The position numbers and the translations under genes were made by a program. This document shows, piece after piece, positions 17,761-31,638 of a stretch of 31,762 nucleotides of DNA. This stretch comes from Thraustochytrium sp. TN22 (lineage: Eukaryota > Sar > Bigyra > Thraustochytrida > Thraustochytriidae): NCBI GenBank assembly GCA_013306675.1, contig JABLUY010000332.1, positions 1 through 31,762 on the forward strand. Direction: 5' to 3'. The notes beneath the pieces were generated by a model. That model did no database searches and had not been told where the DNA came from. It saw nothing but the letters and a program-made list of their open reading frames with translations. Every line of letters starts with the position of its first letter. Position 1 is the stretch's first letter.

Positions 17761-18865
17761 CCCGTGTACTAACCTAACTTTACCACCATGCCACGCCGTC
17801 TTGACCGTGGGCATGACTCATTGACTCGGAGTCTCGGACTCGGACTCGGACTCGGAACGTAGGTGATCCTCGGCAGTCGAGAGAATCCTGGCACATGGCG
17901 GGTACCAGAATTCTCGCGACGCCGCGGCGGCGGCGACGGCGACGCCGGACCCGGGCCCGGGCCCGGGCCGCGGCGGCTGCGCCCGGCCGCGGATTTCCTT
18001 CGTCAGCGAGGATGTCCTCGGCCGAGCGTTTGCGAGCGGCCGCCGCTCGTGGCGGTGGAAAGCGGCCTATTTGTTGAGAAAGCGGAGCAACGGCTCGGAG
18101 GAGTCACGGTCACGGTCTCCACGGCCGAGCGGGTCGAGCGGCACTCTCCGACAGCCTTCAAGTTCAAGTTGTTGGGTGACTTAAAAGCCATGCGTACGTG
18201 CGTCGAAAAATGCGCATTTGTGGGTTGGTGGATGGCATGAACACCGCGGCCGCAGAGGAGTCGTAGTTACGTCCAGACGACCCCGAGGAGGCGCAGCGGA
18301 TAACTAATTCTTCTCAAAAGGCCAGGGTCACAGGTCCACTTTCGCGGCAGTGACAAGCAGCACAAGTACGAGGGAAGCGCCAGCAATGCAACGCAGTTCG
18401 CACACCACGGGCTCAGCGCACTGTTCCGTTTGATCGTTGAGGGTGAGGCAAGTCTTGGCGATGAGCTGCGAGCAGGACGGCAGGCAGGCACAGGCAGGCA
18501 CAGGCAGGGGCGCTCAAGTCAAGGTGAGCGAGGCGCCACACTGCGACATTCGTCCAGGAGCGAGGCGAGGCCTGCACGGCCAAAACCGGCGAGGCAAGGC
18601 TAGGTCAGCCGACCGGCCAGCGGGCGCCGCGCGAGCGCTCGCAGGCGCTAGCGCAAGGGGCAAGCTCGGACCGTGCCAGTGCCGCTCGCGTGCGTCAAGG
18701 CGGAGCAGAAGCGCGGCGCTGCGCACAGCGGACCTGCGAAGGAAGGGGCTGCTGCCCGACCTCACTCAGCCTGGTTTCTCCCGCCTGCCGCGCGCGCGGG
18801 TCATGCCAGTGGCGGTCGGCGAGGTCTAGACAGCCTCTTCCCCTTGATCACGAGCGCGCGTTTGT

Positions 18866-18906
18866 GCGAGTGCGTGCGTGCGTGCGTGCGCGGTTGCGTG
18901 CGTGCA
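18866..18906. repeat. TGCG tandem repeat in the exchanger 5' leader
   Basis: Five or more TGCG units, then a second short block, in alternating pyrimidine-purine order, ending about 40 bp before ATG 18947. Strict alternation makes it a potential Z-DNA former. Confidence 0.8.
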
Positions 18907-18946
18907 TCGTCTCCAATCTCAAGTGCGTTGGTTCGCTTTCCAAGTC

Positions 18947-21805
18947 ATGCGCGGCATGTCACGGCCCGGCCTGGCCGCCCTTCTTCTAGCCATCGCGGCG
19001 ACCGCCCCGGAAGGCACCAGCGCCCTCATTAACGTGGAAGTGGAGCGACTAGACGGCTCGCAGGCAGTCTGCAATGCCAGTGTGTCGTCCACGTACCAGA
19101 ACGATGCGTGCGTCCTGTACAGCACGGAGATGAGCAAGGGCAACCTCATCTACGCGTTGTCGATAAACTCGAGCGAGGGTGAGCTGGATGAGTGCACAGG
19201 CGACTACGTGTTCCCCGTGCTCGCGAGCGAGCTCATGTGGTCAGACTCGGCGCGGCTGGTCTTCTACTTTTTGCTCCTCGTTTGGTGCTTCCTCGGCGTG
19301 GCCATCATTTCGGACCACTTTATGGCCGCTATCGAGGTCATTACCAGCAAGGAGAAGGTCATCGTCCTGGCGAACGAGGACGGCGAGTCCGAGGAGCACC
19401 GGGTGCTGGTGTGGAATGAGACCGTGGCTAACCTGACGCTCATGGCTCTTGGCAGCTCAGCGCCCGAGATTCTTCTCTCGGTCGTGGAGACCATCGGCAC
19501 GCTGGACAAAGAGCCCGAAGACGGTCTTGGCCCATCGACCATCGTGGGCAGCGCGGCCTTTAACCTGCTCTGCATCACGGCCGCCTGCATGGTCGCGCTC
19601 AAGGAGGGCGACAAGCGTGACATCGAGAACTACGGTGTCTTCATGATCACGGCCTTCTTCTCGGTCTTCGCGTACCTCTGGCTGCTCATCGTCCTGTCTG
19701 ACGGTGGCCAAGTGGATCTGTGGGAGGCCTTGATTACCTTCTTGTTCTTTCCGCTGCTGGTTTTCCTTTCGTACGGCGAGAGCAAGGCGTGGTGGGGACT
19801 CTTTGGTCGTTCGCACACGGCCAAGGTGCGGCCCGAGGGTCACGTTGTGGCCGTGGATGCCACGAACCACACCGGCCTGCGCGATCGCCGGCGCTTCTCG
19901 GCGGACCACGGATCGTCGACTGACCCACACGGGGACGCGGTATCCGCGCCAGAACGTTTGGAGCGCGTCATCACCATGGAGGACAAGCAGAACCGCCGCA
20001 TCGCGGAGTTTCTGCAGATGCTGCCGCGCGGGCTCTCAGAGGAGGACGTGGCCAAGGCTGTAGCGGGCGACATCATGAAGGAGAACACCAGCGCCATGCG
20101 CTACCGCATCGACGCGCGCCGCAAGCTGGCGGGCGGCCGCGGCGTGATCCAAAAGCGCCTCGACTTTCTCTCGCGCCACACGACCCGGCGCTTCGCACAC
20201 AACACACCGTCAGAGCTGGACCGCCTGGGGCTTGGCACGCTGGGCGAGACCAAGGGCTCGCACGCTACCTCGCCGGCGGCGATTCAGGAGAGCATCGAAC
20301 AGGAGGAGGTGGCCGCTCGCGAGGCGGAAGAGGCCAAGAAGCGGGCGGGCCCGTCGCTACCGCGCGTTTCCTTCACCGCCTACGCGTACTGCGTGAACGA
20401 GAACTCGGGCAGTATCGACATCCCTGTCGTGCGCATTGGCACGGACGACGAGCTTCGGCTCACCTCGATTGTCTACTTTGAGACACGCAGCGGCACCGCG
20501 CGCGGCGGCGAGGATTTCGAGCATGCCGACGGCAAGCTGGTGTTTTTGCCGGGCGAGAAGGAGAAGTCGATCACCGTCCAGATCATCGACGACAATGTTT
20601 ACGAACCGGACGAGACCTTCCAGGTTGTGCTGAGCGTCAAGGGCGATGACCACAACGTCGATATGGACCACTCGGCCTTTTCGACGGCCGAGGTCACCAT
20701 CATCGACGACGACCTGCCCGGGACATTTACCTTCGACGAGGCTGCTGTCGTGGTCGCCGAGTCGGAGGGCATGGCCCGCATCAAGGTGCGCCGCGACAAT
20801 GGCATCGCAGGCCGCGTCATGCTCAAGTACCGCACCAAGGACGCCACTGCCAAGGCCGGTGAGGACTACATGGAGGCCACGGGCGTGCTGGTCTTTGAGG
20901 AGGGCGTTCGCGCGGCCACGTTCGAGATCGCTATCAGCGACAAGAAGACATACGAGCGCGACTCCACCTTCTCTGCCGAGTTCGAGATCCTCCACTTTCC
21001 AAGCTGCGGCGCGCTCTATGGCGAGCACCGGGTCGTGAGCATTACCATCACGAGTGACGAGCGCTACAAGGCGACCGTCGATCGCATCGCGTCCCTCATG
21101 CGTCTCCACCTGGAGAGCGTCGATGTCGGCTCGGGCAGCTGGAAGGAACAGTTTGTCAATGCCCTCACAGTCCAGGGGGAGGACGGTGCGGACCCGTCCA
21201 ATATCGATTGCGCCTTGCACGTTCTCTCGTTCGGCTGGAAGGTGCTCTTCGCGCTCGTGCCGCCCACCTCGTACTACGGCGGCAAGCTCAGCTTCGGCGT
21301 CTCGCTCTTTTTCATTCTCGTGCTCACGGCCGTGGTTGGTGACGTCGCCAAAATCTTTGGCTGCCTCCTGGGTGTTCCCACCTCTCTTACTGCCATCACC
21401 TTTGTGGCGCTCGGCACCTCCTTGCCGGACACATTTGCCAGCAAGACCGCCGCGGAGAATGACGACAACGCCGACAACTCCATCGGCAACATCACGGGTT
21501 CCAACTCGGTCAACGTCTTCCTCGGTCTTGGGCTGCCCTGGGTCATCGCCACCATCTACAAGAAGATCAAGGGTGAAGTCTACGTTGTCAAGCCGGGCAA
21601 CCTCACCTTTTCCGTCTGCATCTTTTGCATCGTCGCGGCCGTCTACTTTACGCTCATGTACACGCGCCGACGCATGGGCTGGGGCGAGCTCGGCGGCCCG
21701 ACCGGGCCGAAGTGGGCCTCCTTTCTTATTCTCTGCGTCCTTTGGGTGGGCTATGTCACGCTGTCCGGCTTGCAGTCCTTGGGGAAGATCACGAGCCCGT
21801 TTTAA
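18947..21805 (+). CDS. Na+/Ca2+ exchanger (NCX/SLC8-type) with two Calx-beta domains
   Basis: A 952-residue antiporter that exports Ca2+ in exchange for Na+ at the plasma or an internal membrane. It has a signal peptide (1-25, hydrophobic AALLLAIAATA) and a short Cys-containing lumenal or outer segment. The first membrane bundle carries alpha-1 (NLTLMALGSSAPEILLS, 162-178; STIVGSAAFNLL, 197-208). A large cytosolic loop (about 280-760) holds Calx-beta 1 (473-588, ending IIDDDLPG, the acidic Ca2+-site motif) and Calx-beta 2 (592-702). The second bundle carries alpha-2 (FVALGTSLPDTFASKTAA, 819-836; GNITGSNSVNVFLGLG, 847-862). The layout matches animal NCX, including loop size. The ATG at 18947 is the first in frame and begins the signal peptide; upstream in-frame codons contain only GTG. 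Asn-linked sites near the N-terminus (NAS, NSS) fit secretion. Confidence 0.95.
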   Translation: MRGMSRPGLAALLLAIAATAPEGTSALINVEVERLDGSQAVCNASVSSTYQNDACVLYSTEMSKGNLIYALSINSSEGELDECTGDYVFPVLASELMWSDSARLVFYFLLLVWCFLGVAIISDHFMAAIEVITSKEKVIVLANEDGESEEHRVLVWNETVANLTLMALGSSAPEILLSVVETIGTLDKEPEDGLGPSTIVGSAAFNLLCITAACMVALKEGDKRDIENYGVFMITAFFSVFAYLWLLIVLSDGGQVDLWEALITFLFFPLLVFLSYGESKAWWGLFGRSHTAKVRPEGHVVAVDATNHTGLRDRRRFSADHGSSTDPHGDAVSAPERLERVITMEDKQNRRIAEFLQMLPRGLSEEDVAKAVAGDIMKENTSAMRYRIDARRKLAGGRGVIQKRLDFLSRHTTRRFAHNTPSELDRLGLGTLGETKGSHATSPAAIQESIEQEEVAAREAEEAKKRAGPSLPRVSFTAYAYCVNENSGSIDIPVVRIGTDDELRLTSIVYFETRSGTARGGEDFEHADGKLVFLPGEKEKSITVQIIDDNVYEPDETFQVVLSVKGDDHNVDMDHSAFSTAEVTIIDDDLPGTFTFDEAAVVVAESEGMARIKVRRDNGIAGRVMLKYRTKDATAKAGEDYMEATGVLVFEEGVRAATFEIAISDKKTYERDSTFSAEFEILHFPSCGALYGEHRVVSITITSDERYKATVDRIASLMRLHLESVDVGSGSWKEQFVNALTVQGEDGADPSNIDCALHVLSFGWKVLFALVPPTSYYGGKLSFGVSLFFILVLTAVVGDVAKIFGCLLGVPTSLTAITFVALGTSLPDTFASKTAAENDDNADNSIGNITGSNSVNVFLGLGLPWVIATIYKKIKGEVYVVKPGNLTFSVCIFCIVAAVYFTLMYTRRRMGWGELGGPTGPKWASFLILCVLWVGYVTLSGLQSLGKITSPF

Positions 21806-26122: not shown

Positions 26123-29100
26123 TCAGACGGTCTCCTCCAGGTTGTCCTTGTCATTCGCTGGGGGCTCCATGAAGGACCGAGTGTGGTCCTTGAAGGAATC
26201 AATGAAGGAGCTTGACTGGAGCGCGGCGTCCTGGAGGCGCGGCTTGGAGTGCGTGAAGGAGTAGTCCTGGTCCGAATCGGAGTTCGGGCCGGTGGTCCAG
26301 CCCCAGGCGTAGACGTGCCAGACCTTGGGCAGAAAAAGAAAGCCGACGGTGGCGGTGCTGGTGAAGATGATGAGCGCCATCTTGACGATGAAGGAGGCAG
26401 TCGGGTTGTCGCCGGCGAGGAAGAGCACGGGAATGCCGAGGAGGAGCGACTCAAAGGCGGTGGTGAGGGCAAAGGCGATGTAGCGGCCCTCGCCATACTC
26501 CGACGGAATGCGGCGCGACTGGTAAATGAGGTAGATGCCGTAGATGAGCGAGATCATGAGGAGCGCGGCGAGCGGGGCAAGGAGCTGCAGCGAGCGGGGC
26601 GAGTAGCAGCGGCCGTAGGACGCAAGCACGTTGCCGGAGTCGTCAGAGGAAAGGATGACCCGCTCGTAGCGCAGAGGGTCGACGAGAATCCAGACAATGT
26701 TGAGGCCGATGGTGACGAGCAGCAGGAGACCCTGGTAGATCTGCATGGAGCGGTTGGTGATGAAGATGCGCTTGAGCTTGGGGTTGTCGAAGATGCGACC
26801 GAGGCGCCAGGTCTTGAGCCAAAGCGAGGTGTAGAGAACGGCGAAGCCGACCGAGTACAGCAACGGCGCGGCCGCGCAGGCCACGTCGAGCCCCGGGAAG
26901 CTGGCGGCCTCGACGGATGCCACGTCCGTTGCCGTGAGCTCCGCGTAAAAGACGCCGTCGTCCTGAAGCGAGAGAGGGATGATGGCCGACATGCAGATCG
27001 ACGCGCCGAGGAGAATCTGCAAGAGAAAGGGCGGCGACGCAATGAGGATGATCTTCTGGCGGCGGTGCTTTTGCACCCAGAAGGCGAGCACCACGAACAT
27101 GAGAAGGAAGATGCCGACGATGGCAAAGCTAAAGCCGACCACCGGGATGGGGATGAGGTTCTTCGCGTGCGCCGGCGTGAGGATGGACACGCCATTGCAG
27201 GTTATCTCAGAAAGCGCTTGGTAATTGCGCTCCAGGCTGACATCGAGCGTGGAGAGCGGCACAAGACCCTGCGTCACGAGCGGCTCCTCGACAGAGGCGT
27301 CAGCACCCCTCTCCAGCACGTTGTTCAGAATGAAGCCCAGGTACCGCGTATATACGAAGCCGGAGCCCAGAACGGAGTCATCGGCGGTGCCGTCGTTGCA
27401 CTCGACTTCGCCAGAGAAGGAGTTGCGCACGGCAATGTTCATGACGTCGACGAGTGGGTAGCAGGCGGCAGGCCGGGCGGACGAGGTGACGATGGCGCTA
27501 AAGTCGAGCAGACCCGTGGCGCTATCGTACGTGAGGTCGGTGGCGCATGCGGTCACCCCGAGCGTGTCCAGCGTTGCGTAGGTGTTTCCGGCGTCCATGG
27601 TGAGGCTGGCGAAGAAGGCCTCGCGCTGGTTGGCCTCACCAATGGCTGGATTGTACGCGATGGAGAAGGCCGTAATGGCCACGGCAGAGCGCACGGCCTC
27701 CCGATTTTCCTTGGTCACTGTCGGAACGACGTCGAAGTTGCTGTCACCGGAGAGCTCCGCGACGAGGGCCACGAAGCGATTCTTGAGCTCGTCGTCCGCG
27801 TCGTCCGTGCCGTAGATGATAATGTCGGGCACCGTCCAGGCGGGCTCTTCGAGCTTTTGCGTGGCAATTTGCGCAGCGAGGAGCGGGTTGAGCGCAGTGA
27901 TCTCGGCGTCCTCCCAGCTCGTGACGGCGCCGCTGAGCATCTTGGCGAGCAGATCGACCGTGGCGTTGAAGGAGGTCACGAAGTCACAAAGGTTGGCCAG
28001 GTTATCTTCGCCTGAGGAGCAAAAGTTGACCGAGACACCGAGGCCGACGCCGACGTAGGAAAATGCGGTGATCGTGGAGGCCTCGGTGATGGCCGCATTG
28101 GCAGCAGCGTTAGAGGCCAGGGTCATGGCGATGGCGTTGTCGCCTGCGATAACCGCCGAAATGGCGGCTTCCGAGTCGAGGTTCTCGAAGTCGTCCTCAA
28201 AGAGCGTGTCCGGAGAAAGAACGGCGTAGGAAAGCTCGTACTGATTGAAGATGGCCTCGAAGGACTTGGAGCCGCCGTAACCGATGACGGGCGTGTTGTC
28301 CGCCTCGGCAACGTAGAGCATCTCACCATCGCAGTACATGTCCTGCTGGATGCGCGTGACGATGGTGTTGCGCACCTCGTCCGAGAGCGGTGAGAAGCCA
28401 AGGGACTCGGCGATGCCCTGAGGCACCTCGTTCTGATAGAACCAGAGGAAGAAGTCTTGCGTCGCCTTGCGGTTCGCGCACGAGGCGCCGAAGCGCGTGG
28501 TGTTCTTGCGCACGACAAAGTAGGTGTAGCCAGCGATGGGCCAGGCCTGCGACCCGGAGGCGTCCGAAATTACAGCGTTGAGCCGCTCCGGGAACTCCTC
28601 GCCGAAGTCCAGGCCCTTCTCGACCATGGCGTTGGCCACCGTAACCGTGGTGGCCTCGACGGGTGTGGATTCGTTGGTGGCCGCCACAAGGGCCCGCGGC
28701 AGACCGATTGTGAGAGCTTCGCCGAGCACCGAGTAGCCGATGGCGCCCTCGGTAGCCGAGACGTGGCCTGCGACACCGACGTTGCCGTCATGCTTGGTGA
28801 CGATGGCAGGGTAGTCGGCGTTGGAGGAACCCGTGAGATCCTCGAACTGCGTGGCGAAGGCGTCCTCAAAGAGGGCCAGCGCACCCTTGAAGATCTCGCT
28901 CGTTCCGGAGCTGTCGGACCGCACGGTGACGATGATCTCGCCAGCCGCGTCGAGGACGTTCCCGATGGCCGTCGTGAGCGCGGCATCGTCCTCGTACTGG
29001 TTAAGGTCCTTGATGCGCTGATCGCCCCACATGCTGATGGAGCCTGGTTCGCACGTGTAGGGAAGGCCCACTGCGGCCTCATCGCACTTGCGGAAGATCT

Positions 29101-29836
29101 GCGCCAGCACCTCCTTGGTCAGCACGAGCTGGTGGCCCAGGGCGTCGAGTCCGGGCAGGTTGTAAATGGGCACGACGGCGCCTGCCACGGCCGGGTACAT
29201 TTGCAGGTCCGGATACGCCGAGTAGTCGCTCGTCTTGAGCAGCGAGTCGGAGCCAGCAAAGTCCACGTAGTATGTGTCGTAGGAGTCGTCATCGTCCGTG
29301 CAGATGTTGTCACACGCGTCCACGTAGCTCTCGATGCGGCACTTGCCCTTGCCGCTGCCCGTGCCGAGGTACGAGACCGTGACCGACTGGTTCTGAAATC
29401 TGTACGCGAAGAAGGCCTCCTGGTACAGGCGCAGCGGGAAGGTGGCGCCGGCGGCTTGCACAACAACCTTCTCCGCGCCGCTCTCCGTGAGGGTCTCCGG
29501 CGAGAGCTCTGCCAGCGACTCATTCAGGCACGAGGAGAGCTCCGCCAGGCAGCTCGCCTCTGACGTGCCTTTGAGTGAATACAGGTCCTCCGTGTCGCAC
29601 GTGGCCGGCAGCGCCTGCGCGCCGCCCGTCAGCAGGGCGACGGCCACCACCGTCGCTGCCAGGGCCACCAGCGTGGGCGCCGAGCGTCGCGCCATCCGCG
29701 GCGAGCTCTTGCGCGAGCTCGAGCTCGAGCTCGCAGCAGCAGAAGGAGCCATTCGCACTCGATCCCGAAATGTAGTTTGTCGTCGCCGCGCCCCGGCCAG
29801 CCGCGGCCGCTGCATCCGCACCTGCACGCGAGGCAT
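26123..29836 (-). CDS. Class C-like 7TM receptor with two tandem PstS-type phosphate-binding ectodomains
   Basis: A 1237-residue single-exon membrane protein. The signal peptide is at about 48-75 (MARRSAPTLVALAATVVAVALL); Met29 (29752) or Met48 (29695) may be the real start. PstS-like module 1 (about 123-500) matches bacterial PstS: QAAGATFPLRLYQ, YLGTGSGKGK, VDFAGSDSLL, GAVVPIYNLPGL, MWGDQRIKDLN, VRSDSSGT, VGVAGHVSATEGAIGY. The residues aligned with phosphate ligands are all kept: Thr132, Phe133, Ser161, Asp197, Arg306, Ser310, Gly311, Thr312. Module 2 (about 515-890) has the same plan but lacks GATFP and RSDGSGT. Seven membrane helices follow (about 898-920, 930-953, 986-1008, 1033-1052, 1083-1105, 1118-1142, 1149-1170). 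FAVLYTSLWLKTWRLGRIF after helix 3 and FLPKVWHVY after helix 7 are class C traits, with a probable Cys987-Cys1077 disulfide. The tail is about 65 residues. A phosphate-sensing GPCR is the inference. Confidence 0.88.
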   Translation of the reverse strand: MPRVQVRMQRPRLAGARRRQTTFRDRVRMAPSAAASSSSSSRKSSPRMARRSAPTLVALAATVVAVALLTGGAQALPATCDTEDLYSLKGTSEASCLAELSSCLNESLAELSPETLTESGAEKVVVQAAGATFPLRLYQEAFFAYRFQNQSVTVSYLGTGSGKGKCRIESYVDACDNICTDDDDSYDTYYVDFAGSDSLLKTSDYSAYPDLQMYPAVAGAVVPIYNLPGLDALGHQLVLTKEVLAQIFRKCDEAAVGLPYTCEPGSISMWGDQRIKDLNQYEDDAALTTAIGNVLDAAGEIIVTVRSDSSGTSEIFKGALALFEDAFATQFEDLTGSSNADYPAIVTKHDGNVGVAGHVSATEGAIGYSVLGEALTIGLPRALVAATNESTPVEATTVTVANAMVEKGLDFGEEFPERLNAVISDASGSQAWPIAGYTYFVVRKNTTRFGASCANRKATQDFFLWFYQNEVPQGIAESLGFSPLSDEVRNTIVTRIQQDMYCDGEMLYVAEADNTPVIGYGGSKSFEAIFNQYELSYAVLSPDTLFEDDFENLDSEAAISAVIAGDNAIAMTLASNAAANAAITEASTITAFSYVGVGLGVSVNFCSSGEDNLANLCDFVTSFNATVDLLAKMLSGAVTSWEDAEITALNPLLAAQIATQKLEEPAWTVPDIIIYGTDDADDELKNRFVALVAELSGDSNFDVVPTVTKENREAVRSAVAITAFSIAYNPAIGEANQREAFFASLTMDAGNTYATLDTLGVTACATDLTYDSATGLLDFSAIVTSSARPAACYPLVDVMNIAVRNSFSGEVECNDGTADDSVLGSGFVYTRYLGFILNNVLERGADASVEEPLVTQGLVPLSTLDVSLERNYQALSEITCNGVSILTPAHAKNLIPIPVVGFSFAIVGIFLLMFVVLAFWVQKHRRQKIILIASPPFLLQILLGASICMSAIIPLSLQDDGVFYAELTATDVASVEAASFPGLDVACAAAPLLYSVGFAVLYTSLWLKTWRLGRIFDNPKLKRIFITNRSMQIYQGLLLLVTIGLNIVWILVDPLRYERVILSSDDSGNVLASYGRCYSPRSLQLLAPLAALLMISLIYGIYLIYQSRRIPSEYGEGRYIAFALTTAFESLLLGIPVLFLAGDNPTASFIVKMALIIFTSTATVGFLFLPKVWHVYAWGWTTGPNSDSDQDYSFTHSKPRLQDAALQSSSFIDSFKDHTRSFMEPPANDKDNLEETV

Positions 29837-31638
29837 GGGATGGAATCGCGCGCGCGCCTCTGGCGCTTCGCGGCCCTCCGCCTGCGCGCGCTTGTCCCCT
29901 CCGCCTGCTCTGAAGTCTGCAGACTCTGCACCACAGCAGCCCGTCCCGGTTCAGGCGCGCGCGTCCATCATGCTCCCCTCCCTGGGCGCGTGGTCGGTCG
30001 CCGAGCAGGACGCTAGATTCAAAGTGCATTCGCAGGGGGTCAGGCACCGCTTCATGCGCGCTTGCCTAGATCCGCCGTCGCGTGGCGCCACGGGCCTCTT
30101 CACTCCACCAATCAGTCGTCCGTGCATCATCGCTCTGCTACTAGCCTAATAAGTTAGCTCAGGCCGGCCAAGGCCAAGCGCATCAAGAACTCGAAAAGCA
30201 GGGGTGCCAAGGTGCCAAGGCGAAGCAAAGCGTCGCGGCTTGCAGGTCACGCTGGCGCGAGCACGCGAGCGGCGGCGCGGCGCAGCCCGGCTGGCGCCCG
30301 ATGCGCTGCGGCGGCGGCGCACCTCGCACCTCGACTCGCGTCCCGTGGGAAGCAGGCACTTGGAGCCCGCCCCCGCGGGAGTTGGAGCTTCCGCTCACGG
30401 CGCTTGGCTTCGTGAGAAGAGCAGCGACAGCGCGTGCCGTGGCCGTGGCCGCACCTAGGCCTAGGCCCAGTGGTGATGGCAGGCTAGCAGCCACAAGGGG
30501 CTACCGTGACGCCGCTACAGAGTGGCACGCGTTGCACAGCACCCCAGGCGCAGCCCACTGCAAGGCACAATACAAGTTTCTTGCAGGGCTCGGCGCTGCC
30601 TGCTGACACCGGAACCGCTGTGGCTGGCGACGCTGGAATGGCCGCTGATAGCGCCGGAACCGCTGGTGGCGCCGACCAGGCCGACCAGGAGCGCGTTCCC
30701 GTACCCGCCTGGCCGCGGACCGCCAGTCACCGCCTTCTTCTTTAGCCTTCGGGCAGCCAGCCATCTGAGCGGCGGCTGATTAGTAGGCTAGCGTGTCCAA
30801 GTTGCAGGAAGCTTGCTACTGGCAGCCAAACAACCCGTCCTCCGCAAGCTCCGCTGATCAGCGGCTGATGCGCTGGGAGGACCAGCGCCTTCGTCTGTTG
30901 GCCAAAGACGCAGGCCAGGGGGCTCCTGGGTGCTGTGTCTTGTTTCACGCTCGCTCCAAAGAGAAGCAACGCGCTTCACCGAGCCGTGGTCTCTTGAGCT
31001 GCCCGAGCTCCCACCGACCGATTCTGCGAGCTCCGCAGCCGTGCAAGGCACCTGCACAAACTGCCAGACTGCCAGTGCCAGAGACGAACGAACGAGCCTT
31101 CCGAGGCCGCGGACTCGGACTTGAAAACACGTCGCGGGCTCGCAGCGCCTCGCAGCGCGCCGCAGCGCGTGCACAACCAAGCACAACCGAGACACTGGCT
31201 GGTGTTGGCCCGCTGCACGCTGGCCGACCAAAGCCTTTCATGGGCGGAGCATCTTCAAGTCGCCTCGGCAGCAGGGGCCTGCCCGCCTCTTGCGGCCTGA
31301 CTGCGTGCGGCCCTGCGCTACCAGCCTAACAGTTACAGTACCCCTGGCACTGCAGCCAGCGCCCGAATCTTTGTCAAGTTGCACAACTTGAAGCTCGGCT
31401 CTCCGAGTCGTGCACAGCTCCGAGTCACCATCACTGCACAGGTCACGCCAGGTGACCGAGGGGCCCAAGGCAAGGTGTGCGACGCTCTGCACAGTGTGCG
31501 GTGACAGGCCGCGGACCCCCGCAACTCTGTATGATGCCACGTAAGACGCGCTCCAGGAGTGCGGCAGCCAGACCGATTGCTTGACCTCGTACTCCTACAC
31601 GCGGCGCGACAGTGACGGCCGGCGCGGGGGAGGACGCG
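29837..31638. other. Gene-free 1.8-kb region upstream of the receptor gene
   Basis: No gene or RNA was recognised. Open frames up to about 180 codons occur but none begins with a credible ATG or shows a domain. A 12-bp direct repeat CCGGAACCGCTG occurs at 30609 and 30654. GACTCGGA or its complement TCCGAGTC occurs at 31111, 31402 and 31419. It should hold the receptor promoter on the left and the promoter of the partial gene at 31639 on the right. Confidence 0.5.

Follow-up and report, generated by a model that had tools for sequence, protein, structure and literature searches.

A putative class C receptor for extracellular phosphate with tandem PstS-type modules in Thraustochytrium sp. TN22

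What might a seven-transmembrane (7TM) receptor sense when bacterial-type phosphate-binding modules stand in the place of its usual ectodomain? The question is raised by one gene of the thraustochytrid Thraustochytrium sp. TN22, located on the reverse strand (26123..29836) of contig JABLUY010000332.1 (assembly GCA_013306675.1), of which positions 1 to 31,762, the whole stretch of 31,762 nucleotides called the window below, were analysed. The predicted product carries, in one frame and in this order, a signal peptide, two PstS-type modules (SBP1 and SBP2) and a class C 7TM core, and the best reading of its sequence is that it is probably a metabotropic receptor for extracellular orthophosphate. 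As such the gene represents a concrete candidate for a surface phosphate sensor in a protist.

The PstS-type ectodomain and its ligand residues

Pfam matches above the cut-off were obtained for PBP_like_2 at residues 119–469 (2.5e-17; curated cut-off) and for 7tm_3 at residues 900–1171 (1.8e-33; 116.7 bits against a cut-off of 33.5), the sole other match listed up to E 10 was ABC2_membrane (1.8), and ANF_receptor, the usual, not universal, Venus-flytrap ectodomain of class C, had no match listed for the window protein up to the same E value. In a search of the PDB the ectodomain was closest to PstS (5.1e-14). SBP1 (residues 123–497; 28346..29470, reverse strand like all features of this gene) is a member of the PstS/PBP_like_2 sequence family, with PBP_like_2 at 2.1e-14 when the module was scanned alone, and a profile of SBP1 from three paralogues matched 20 solved sequences at E ≤ 0.001, the best at 4.9e-24. 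By their labels these 20 are PstS, further proteins that bind phosphate or belong to phosphate transporters, a DING protein and a 'putative alkaline phosphatase', the last of which aligns across the same stretch as the DING protein. SBP1 is ~30% identical to the best-scoring bacterial PstS among the matches listed (378 aligned positions, E 3.5e-37), and the profile alignment exposed insertions relative to solved PstS. As for the bacterial source of SBP1, the tree displayed a weak grouping with two Chloroflexota sequences (86/83); a first scan of genome_contigs for relatives of the SBP1 alignment gave 75 stretches that fit a pattern, with 0 confirmed, and in IMG/VR no stretch fit the patterns for relatives of the whole window protein.

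The residues that we take to bind phosphate in E. coli PstS are all retained in SBP1, where the putative ligands Thr132 and Phe133 (29438..29443), Ser161 (29354..29356), Asp197 (29246..29248), Arg306 (28919..28921), and Ser310, Gly311 and Thr312 (28901..28909) align with the PstS ligand motifs, Asp197 presumably corresponding to PstS Asp56 and Arg306 to PstS Arg135. A complete set of eight ligands at these positions had been claimed in the preliminary description of this DNA, made from the letters alone, and the alignment with the motifs of solved PstS (E 4.9e-24) bears the claim out. All eight are kept in 3/3 paralogues and, with 172 of 375 SBP1 positions invariant among the three, the chance that all eight would be invariant is ~0.002. 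The same eight positions are identical in 49/49 aligned bacterial PstS, drawn from the 101 of 117 that passed length and name filters, although only six of the positions are independent, since the pattern with which these sequences were gathered prescribed Thr and Phe.

PBP_like_2 was detected at four places in the genome, three of which are receptors of the same build, namely the window (C258), L043 (C249) and L044 (C111), where C and L numbers are our handles for contigs and loci. Identity to the window protein is 41% and 62% for the two other receptors. Differential conservation was observed for the parts of the chain, with pairwise identities among the three paralogues of 52–75% for SBP1, 41–66% for the 7TM part and 32–57% for SBP2, so that SBP1 is the best conserved part in 3/3 pairs. 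The ratio of nonsynonymous to synonymous divergence (dN/dS) is likewise lowest in SBP1 in 3/3 pairs, and in the closest pair (window and L044) amounts to ~0.11 for SBP1, ~0.24 for SBP2 and ~0.22 for the 7TM part, values that give a ranking and no measurement, as dS lies at 0.9–1.6, near saturation. Because two paralogues keep the same order, the arrangement of SBP1, SBP2 and 7TM core goes beyond chance. That the PstS modules came to stand beside a class C core through chance gene joining or an assembly error is accordingly hardly credible: the receptor is known from genomic sequence alone, which would leave room for such an event, but the paralogues on C258, C249 and C111 all show this order within a single open frame, and the window protein has a single signal-peptide-like segment.

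A module of this family might also have acquired another ligand within the same architecture, so that SBP1 would bind a different oxyanion, or a phosphorylated or phosphonate compound, in place of orthophosphate. Its identity to PstS of ~30% and its insertions fit such a change, and a further receptor of the same genome, L039, has an ectodomain of the phosphonate-binding type (2.9e-23); the eight orthophosphate ligands, among them the acidic Asp197, are nevertheless invariant in three diverged paralogues, and we consider a changed ligand unlikely. The reading as a receptor for orthophosphate is strengthened by the retention of the ligand set in the paralogues.

Class C core, second module and proposed signalling

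The 7TM core (residues 899–1167; 26336..27142) comprises seven segments, and its nearest solved structure is GABA-B subunit 2 (1.4e-21, PDB search), GABA-B2 and mGlu being its solved relatives. Lys1008 (26813..26815), which lies in a KTWR motif aligned with the KTWR of GABA-B2, occupies position 3.50 of the class C ionic lock, and Glu1116 (26489..26491) aligns with position 6.35, that of its partner. Together with Arg1011 they align with GABA-B2 Lys574, Arg577 and Asp688, where the GABA-B2 chain in the alignment is numbered 40 lower and the Lys-Asp spacing of 114 residues agrees. Cys987 and Cys1077 align with the cysteines of the third transmembrane segment and the second outer loop, a pair that is a class C trait, and both are invariant among the three paralogues, as are Lys1008, Arg1011 and Glu1116. 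The roles of the three GABA-B2 residues, including the ionic lock, are described in PMC8222003 and PMC9360005 (cited, like the other papers named below, from excerpts). By its 7tm_3 score, by seven segments that follow a large, putatively extracellular N-terminal part with a signal peptide, and by its lock pair and cysteines, the window protein resembles the class C (glutamate family) G-protein-coupled receptors, from which it departs in having no ANF-type ectodomain. The class C-like core of the preliminary description thus holds.

SBP2, which adjoins the membrane (residues 498–889; 27170..28345), shows a lower level of conservation. Scanned alone it reaches PBP_like_2 at E 0.0028 in the window, 0.007 in L043 and 7e-5 in L044, and its 17.9, 16.6 and 23.2 bits in the respective paralogues all fall under the cut-off of 27. 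A profile built from SBP2 of the three paralogues gave six matches in the PDB up to E = 1, 6/6 to PstS-kind phosphate-binding proteins (best 6.7e-4), and its alignment with the profile of SBP1 had an E value of 4.7e-5 and a probability of 68. As the family score lies under the cut-off, yet the profile matches are all of the PstS kind, SBP2 is judged from sequence to be a real but weak PstS-like module that is degenerate. Of the eight ligand positions one retains its residue (the Ser), five carry another residue and two lie in a gap, in an alignment that is 14–21% identical and whose placement is uncertain. Both parts of the earlier proposal, a tandem PstS-type ectodomain and a degenerate second module, agree with these results. 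With regard to a possible origin of SBP2 as an internal copy of SBP1, SBP2 forms a separate long branch in the tree, and a constraint placing SBP1 and SBP2 together was not rejected (p-AU 0.099).

In the proposed mechanism, SBP1, the outermost module, would close on extracellular inorganic phosphate, as its complete and conserved ligand set suggests. SBP2 seems to have lost a PstS-type phosphate site and would most likely act as a spacer, contribute to dimer contact and transmit the closure of SBP1 to the 7TM part, probably inside a dimer; the core would then activate one of the G-alpha proteins of the cell, which could in this way sense directly at the cell surface how much phosphate is available. 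By analogy with GABA-B, a split in which SBP1 binds and SBP2 transmits within one chain is possible and agrees with the pairing of an intact with a degenerate module, and a role of SBP2 as a plain spacer fits as well.

Several points weigh against a phosphate receptor. The identity of SBP1 to bacterial PstS is only ~30%, and such a module can switch ligand after fusion; the ranking of constraint comes from nearly saturated synonymous sites; Asn520 of GABA-B2, another of the switch residues and a further partner there, is not kept and corresponds to Leu938 here; and proteins with the SPX domain, the usual internal phosphate sensors, were detected at 10 places in the genome, so the cell need not have a sensor at its surface. 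The protein might also bind phosphate without signalling through G proteins, as a phosphate co-receptor, a scavenger or an adhesion protein. The cytoplasmic tail (residues 1181–1237; 26126..26296) is poorly conserved, with 17–37% identity among paralogues, and the genome encodes L045, a surface binding protein with kelch repeats and PBP_like_2 and without a 7TM part, both of which would suit a non-signalling role; that role is nonetheless improbable, as the core retains the class C switch residues and G-alpha is abundant in the genome. The G-alpha matches number 24 places, 15 of them above the cut-off, two of those 15 within one frame.

L045 (4504-7074, reverse strand, C434), the fourth PBP_like_2 place, encodes a signal-peptide-like segment, kelch repeats, PBP_like_2 and one transmembrane segment, and would appear to be a surface protein that crosses the membrane once and bears a PstS-like domain. 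The exon-wise genome search for a PiT/PHO4-type transporter found 0 places. On C331 (66388-70624) a G-alpha match and a class C receptor match share a strand and are ~2.5 kb apart.

Class C receptors in the genome and in other organisms

Matches to 7tm_3 were found at 38 places in the genome, 37 of them above the cut-off, a count that is a lower bound because the search was exon-wise. Among the 35 of these 38 places that were scanned with Pfam, frame by frame and with introns ignored, bacterial-type ectodomains above the cut-off were PBP_like_2 (3), OpuAC (5) and Phosphonate-bd (1), and other ectodomains were ANF_receptor (3), an MCP-type PDC sensor (1), Laminin_G_3/Ephrin_rec_like (1) and sCache_2 (1). 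Cache matches under the cut-off were observed in a further 8/35, and 12/35 had no recognised ligand-binding ectodomain, although one of the 12 matched a disordered repeat. In a tree of 37 7TM cores, from which the partial place at C169:41690 was left out, the PstS-type receptors form one clade (3 rows, 100/100), the OpuAC-type receptors another (5 rows, 100/100), and the Cache/PDC-type receptors a third (11 rows, 100/99) that includes two rows with no recognised ectodomain. A supported branch (98/94) separates the PstS group from the OpuAC group, the three ANF-type receptors do not all cluster, and several long-branch rows, the phosphonate-type receptor included, are unsure in their placement. 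We lean slightly towards a wider proposal in which the window protein would be a metabotropic phosphate receptor, bacterial nutrient-binding proteins (phosphate, betaine-type and phosphonate-type) would have been made into class C receptors clade by clade in this protist lineage, which would thereby monitor dissolved nutrients directly at the cell surface, and the chain of the phosphate branch would combine a binding module with a pure transmitter. The ligand range of class C may then extend to inorganic nutrients through the exchange of bacterial binding modules, and if modules were exchanged in this way, the ligands of orphan protist receptors could be guessed from the family of the binding protein.

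The five OpuAC receptors (glycine-betaine type; L029, L031, L032, L033 and L035) are clustered at C437:7916-27213 and belong to one 7TM clade. The phosphonate-type receptor L039 (128-3160, reverse strand, C421) carries a Phosphonate-bd ectodomain of the PhnD type (2.9e-23), which matched one chain among solved structures, a phosphonate-binding protein, weakly (0.0091). L041 (1117-5634, forward strand, C224) joins Laminin_G_3 and Ephrin_rec_like to a class C 7TM part, and L042 (1758-5105, forward strand; C169:39257-42604), the third receptor frame in a row, covers positions 6-66 only of 7tm_3 and is perhaps a decayed or intron-split receptor copy.

GABA-B subunit 2 resembles the window protein in being its nearest solved 7TM part, with ionic-lock positions kept, and differs in that it has an ANF-type ectodomain and works as a heterodimer, whereas the ectodomain here is of the PstS type. 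Bacterial PstS is a free partner of the PstABC transporter; SBP1 belongs to the same sequence family and has all eight ligands, but forms one chain with a second module and a 7TM core. Class C fusions with bacterial binding domains have been described before. PBP_like_2 and 7tm_3 were listed in 2012 for one protein of the chytrid Spizellomyces punctatus, SPPG_06488, which like the window protein joins both in one putative glutamate-family receptor; the comparison is one of descriptions, the excerpted source giving a listing of domain names in which the phosphate site, tandem modules and ligand are undiscussed (PMC3251606). The same source lists OpuAC, SBP_bac_1, LysR_substrate and BMP for further class C receptors of fungi or amoebae, sugar-type SBP type II is carried by gut-fungal ones (PMC5168858), and diatom class C receptors contain periplasmic-binding domains, three of them most like components of ABC sugar transporters (PMC3727952). 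The Allomyces receptors (OpuAC, SBP_bac_1 and LysR_substrate; PMC3251606) and the gut-fungal receptors (PMC5168858) share with the window protein a class C ectodomain of the bacterial ABC-transporter type, but belong by name to other ligand classes, with no phosphate type in the excerpts of PMC5168858. GrlD of Dictyostelium, a putative polyphosphate receptor, is likewise of class C and linked to a phosphate compound; its ligand is polyphosphate, however, and Grl ectodomains are of the ANF type, of the BMP type or without a recognised domain, PBP_like_2 appearing among the abbreviations of that paper, with no discussion of it in the excerpts (PMC10445921). Receptor ectodomains in relatives of animals are treated in PMC12716839. 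On the question, raised in the preliminary description, of whether the architecture has been described before, the domain pair was on record in 2012, so that it is not wholly new; among the entries listed in searches of open-licence PMC papers, none described a 7TM core with PstS modules in tandem, or a receptor of this kind whose phosphate site is intact or conserved. Thraustochytrids are enriched in three GPCR (G-protein-coupled receptor) domains, IPR017978 among them, and in a G-protein domain (PMC6050695), IPR017978 being the class C entry (PMC5168858). For diatoms, a 2024 article treats it as unknown whether phosphate is sensed at the plasma membrane or internally, for example by SPX proteins (PMC11448323).

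Reading frame, neighbouring genes and further observations

The frame is open over 1275 codons (26123-29950, reverse strand) in a scan of open reading frames, and its first ATG at 29836 gives a product of 1237 amino acids, the 1237 codons and the stop (26123-26125) filling 26123..29836. Met48 (29695), directly ahead of the signal peptide, is the likelier start codon, and in the paralogue L043 a Met directly precedes the hydrophobic segment. The signal peptide region, assigned from its position, would span residues 48–75 (29612..29695). A simple hydropathy scan revealed one signal-peptide-like segment at residues 55–73 and seven more segments at 899–1167. Two separate genes read as one were rejected as unlikely because the three paralogues on three contigs hold all parts, in order, in one frame. 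A bacterial-type promoter scan upstream of the gene, which is not meaningful in a eukaryote, found 0. The neighbouring genes in the window are of eukaryote type, so the contig is not bacterial and bacterial contamination was rejected; a plasmid search with the neighbouring helicase gave two weak records.

One gene of the window (18848-21802, forward strand) encodes a Na/Ca exchanger with Calx-beta domains, a build known from animals. Elsewhere in the genome, C124:29160-32300 holds ten acyl-carrier domains at 327-base spacing within a frame of 3044 codons; such a tandem array, which we take to be a mark of the polyunsaturated fatty acid synthases of thraustochytrids, suggests a synthase of that type.

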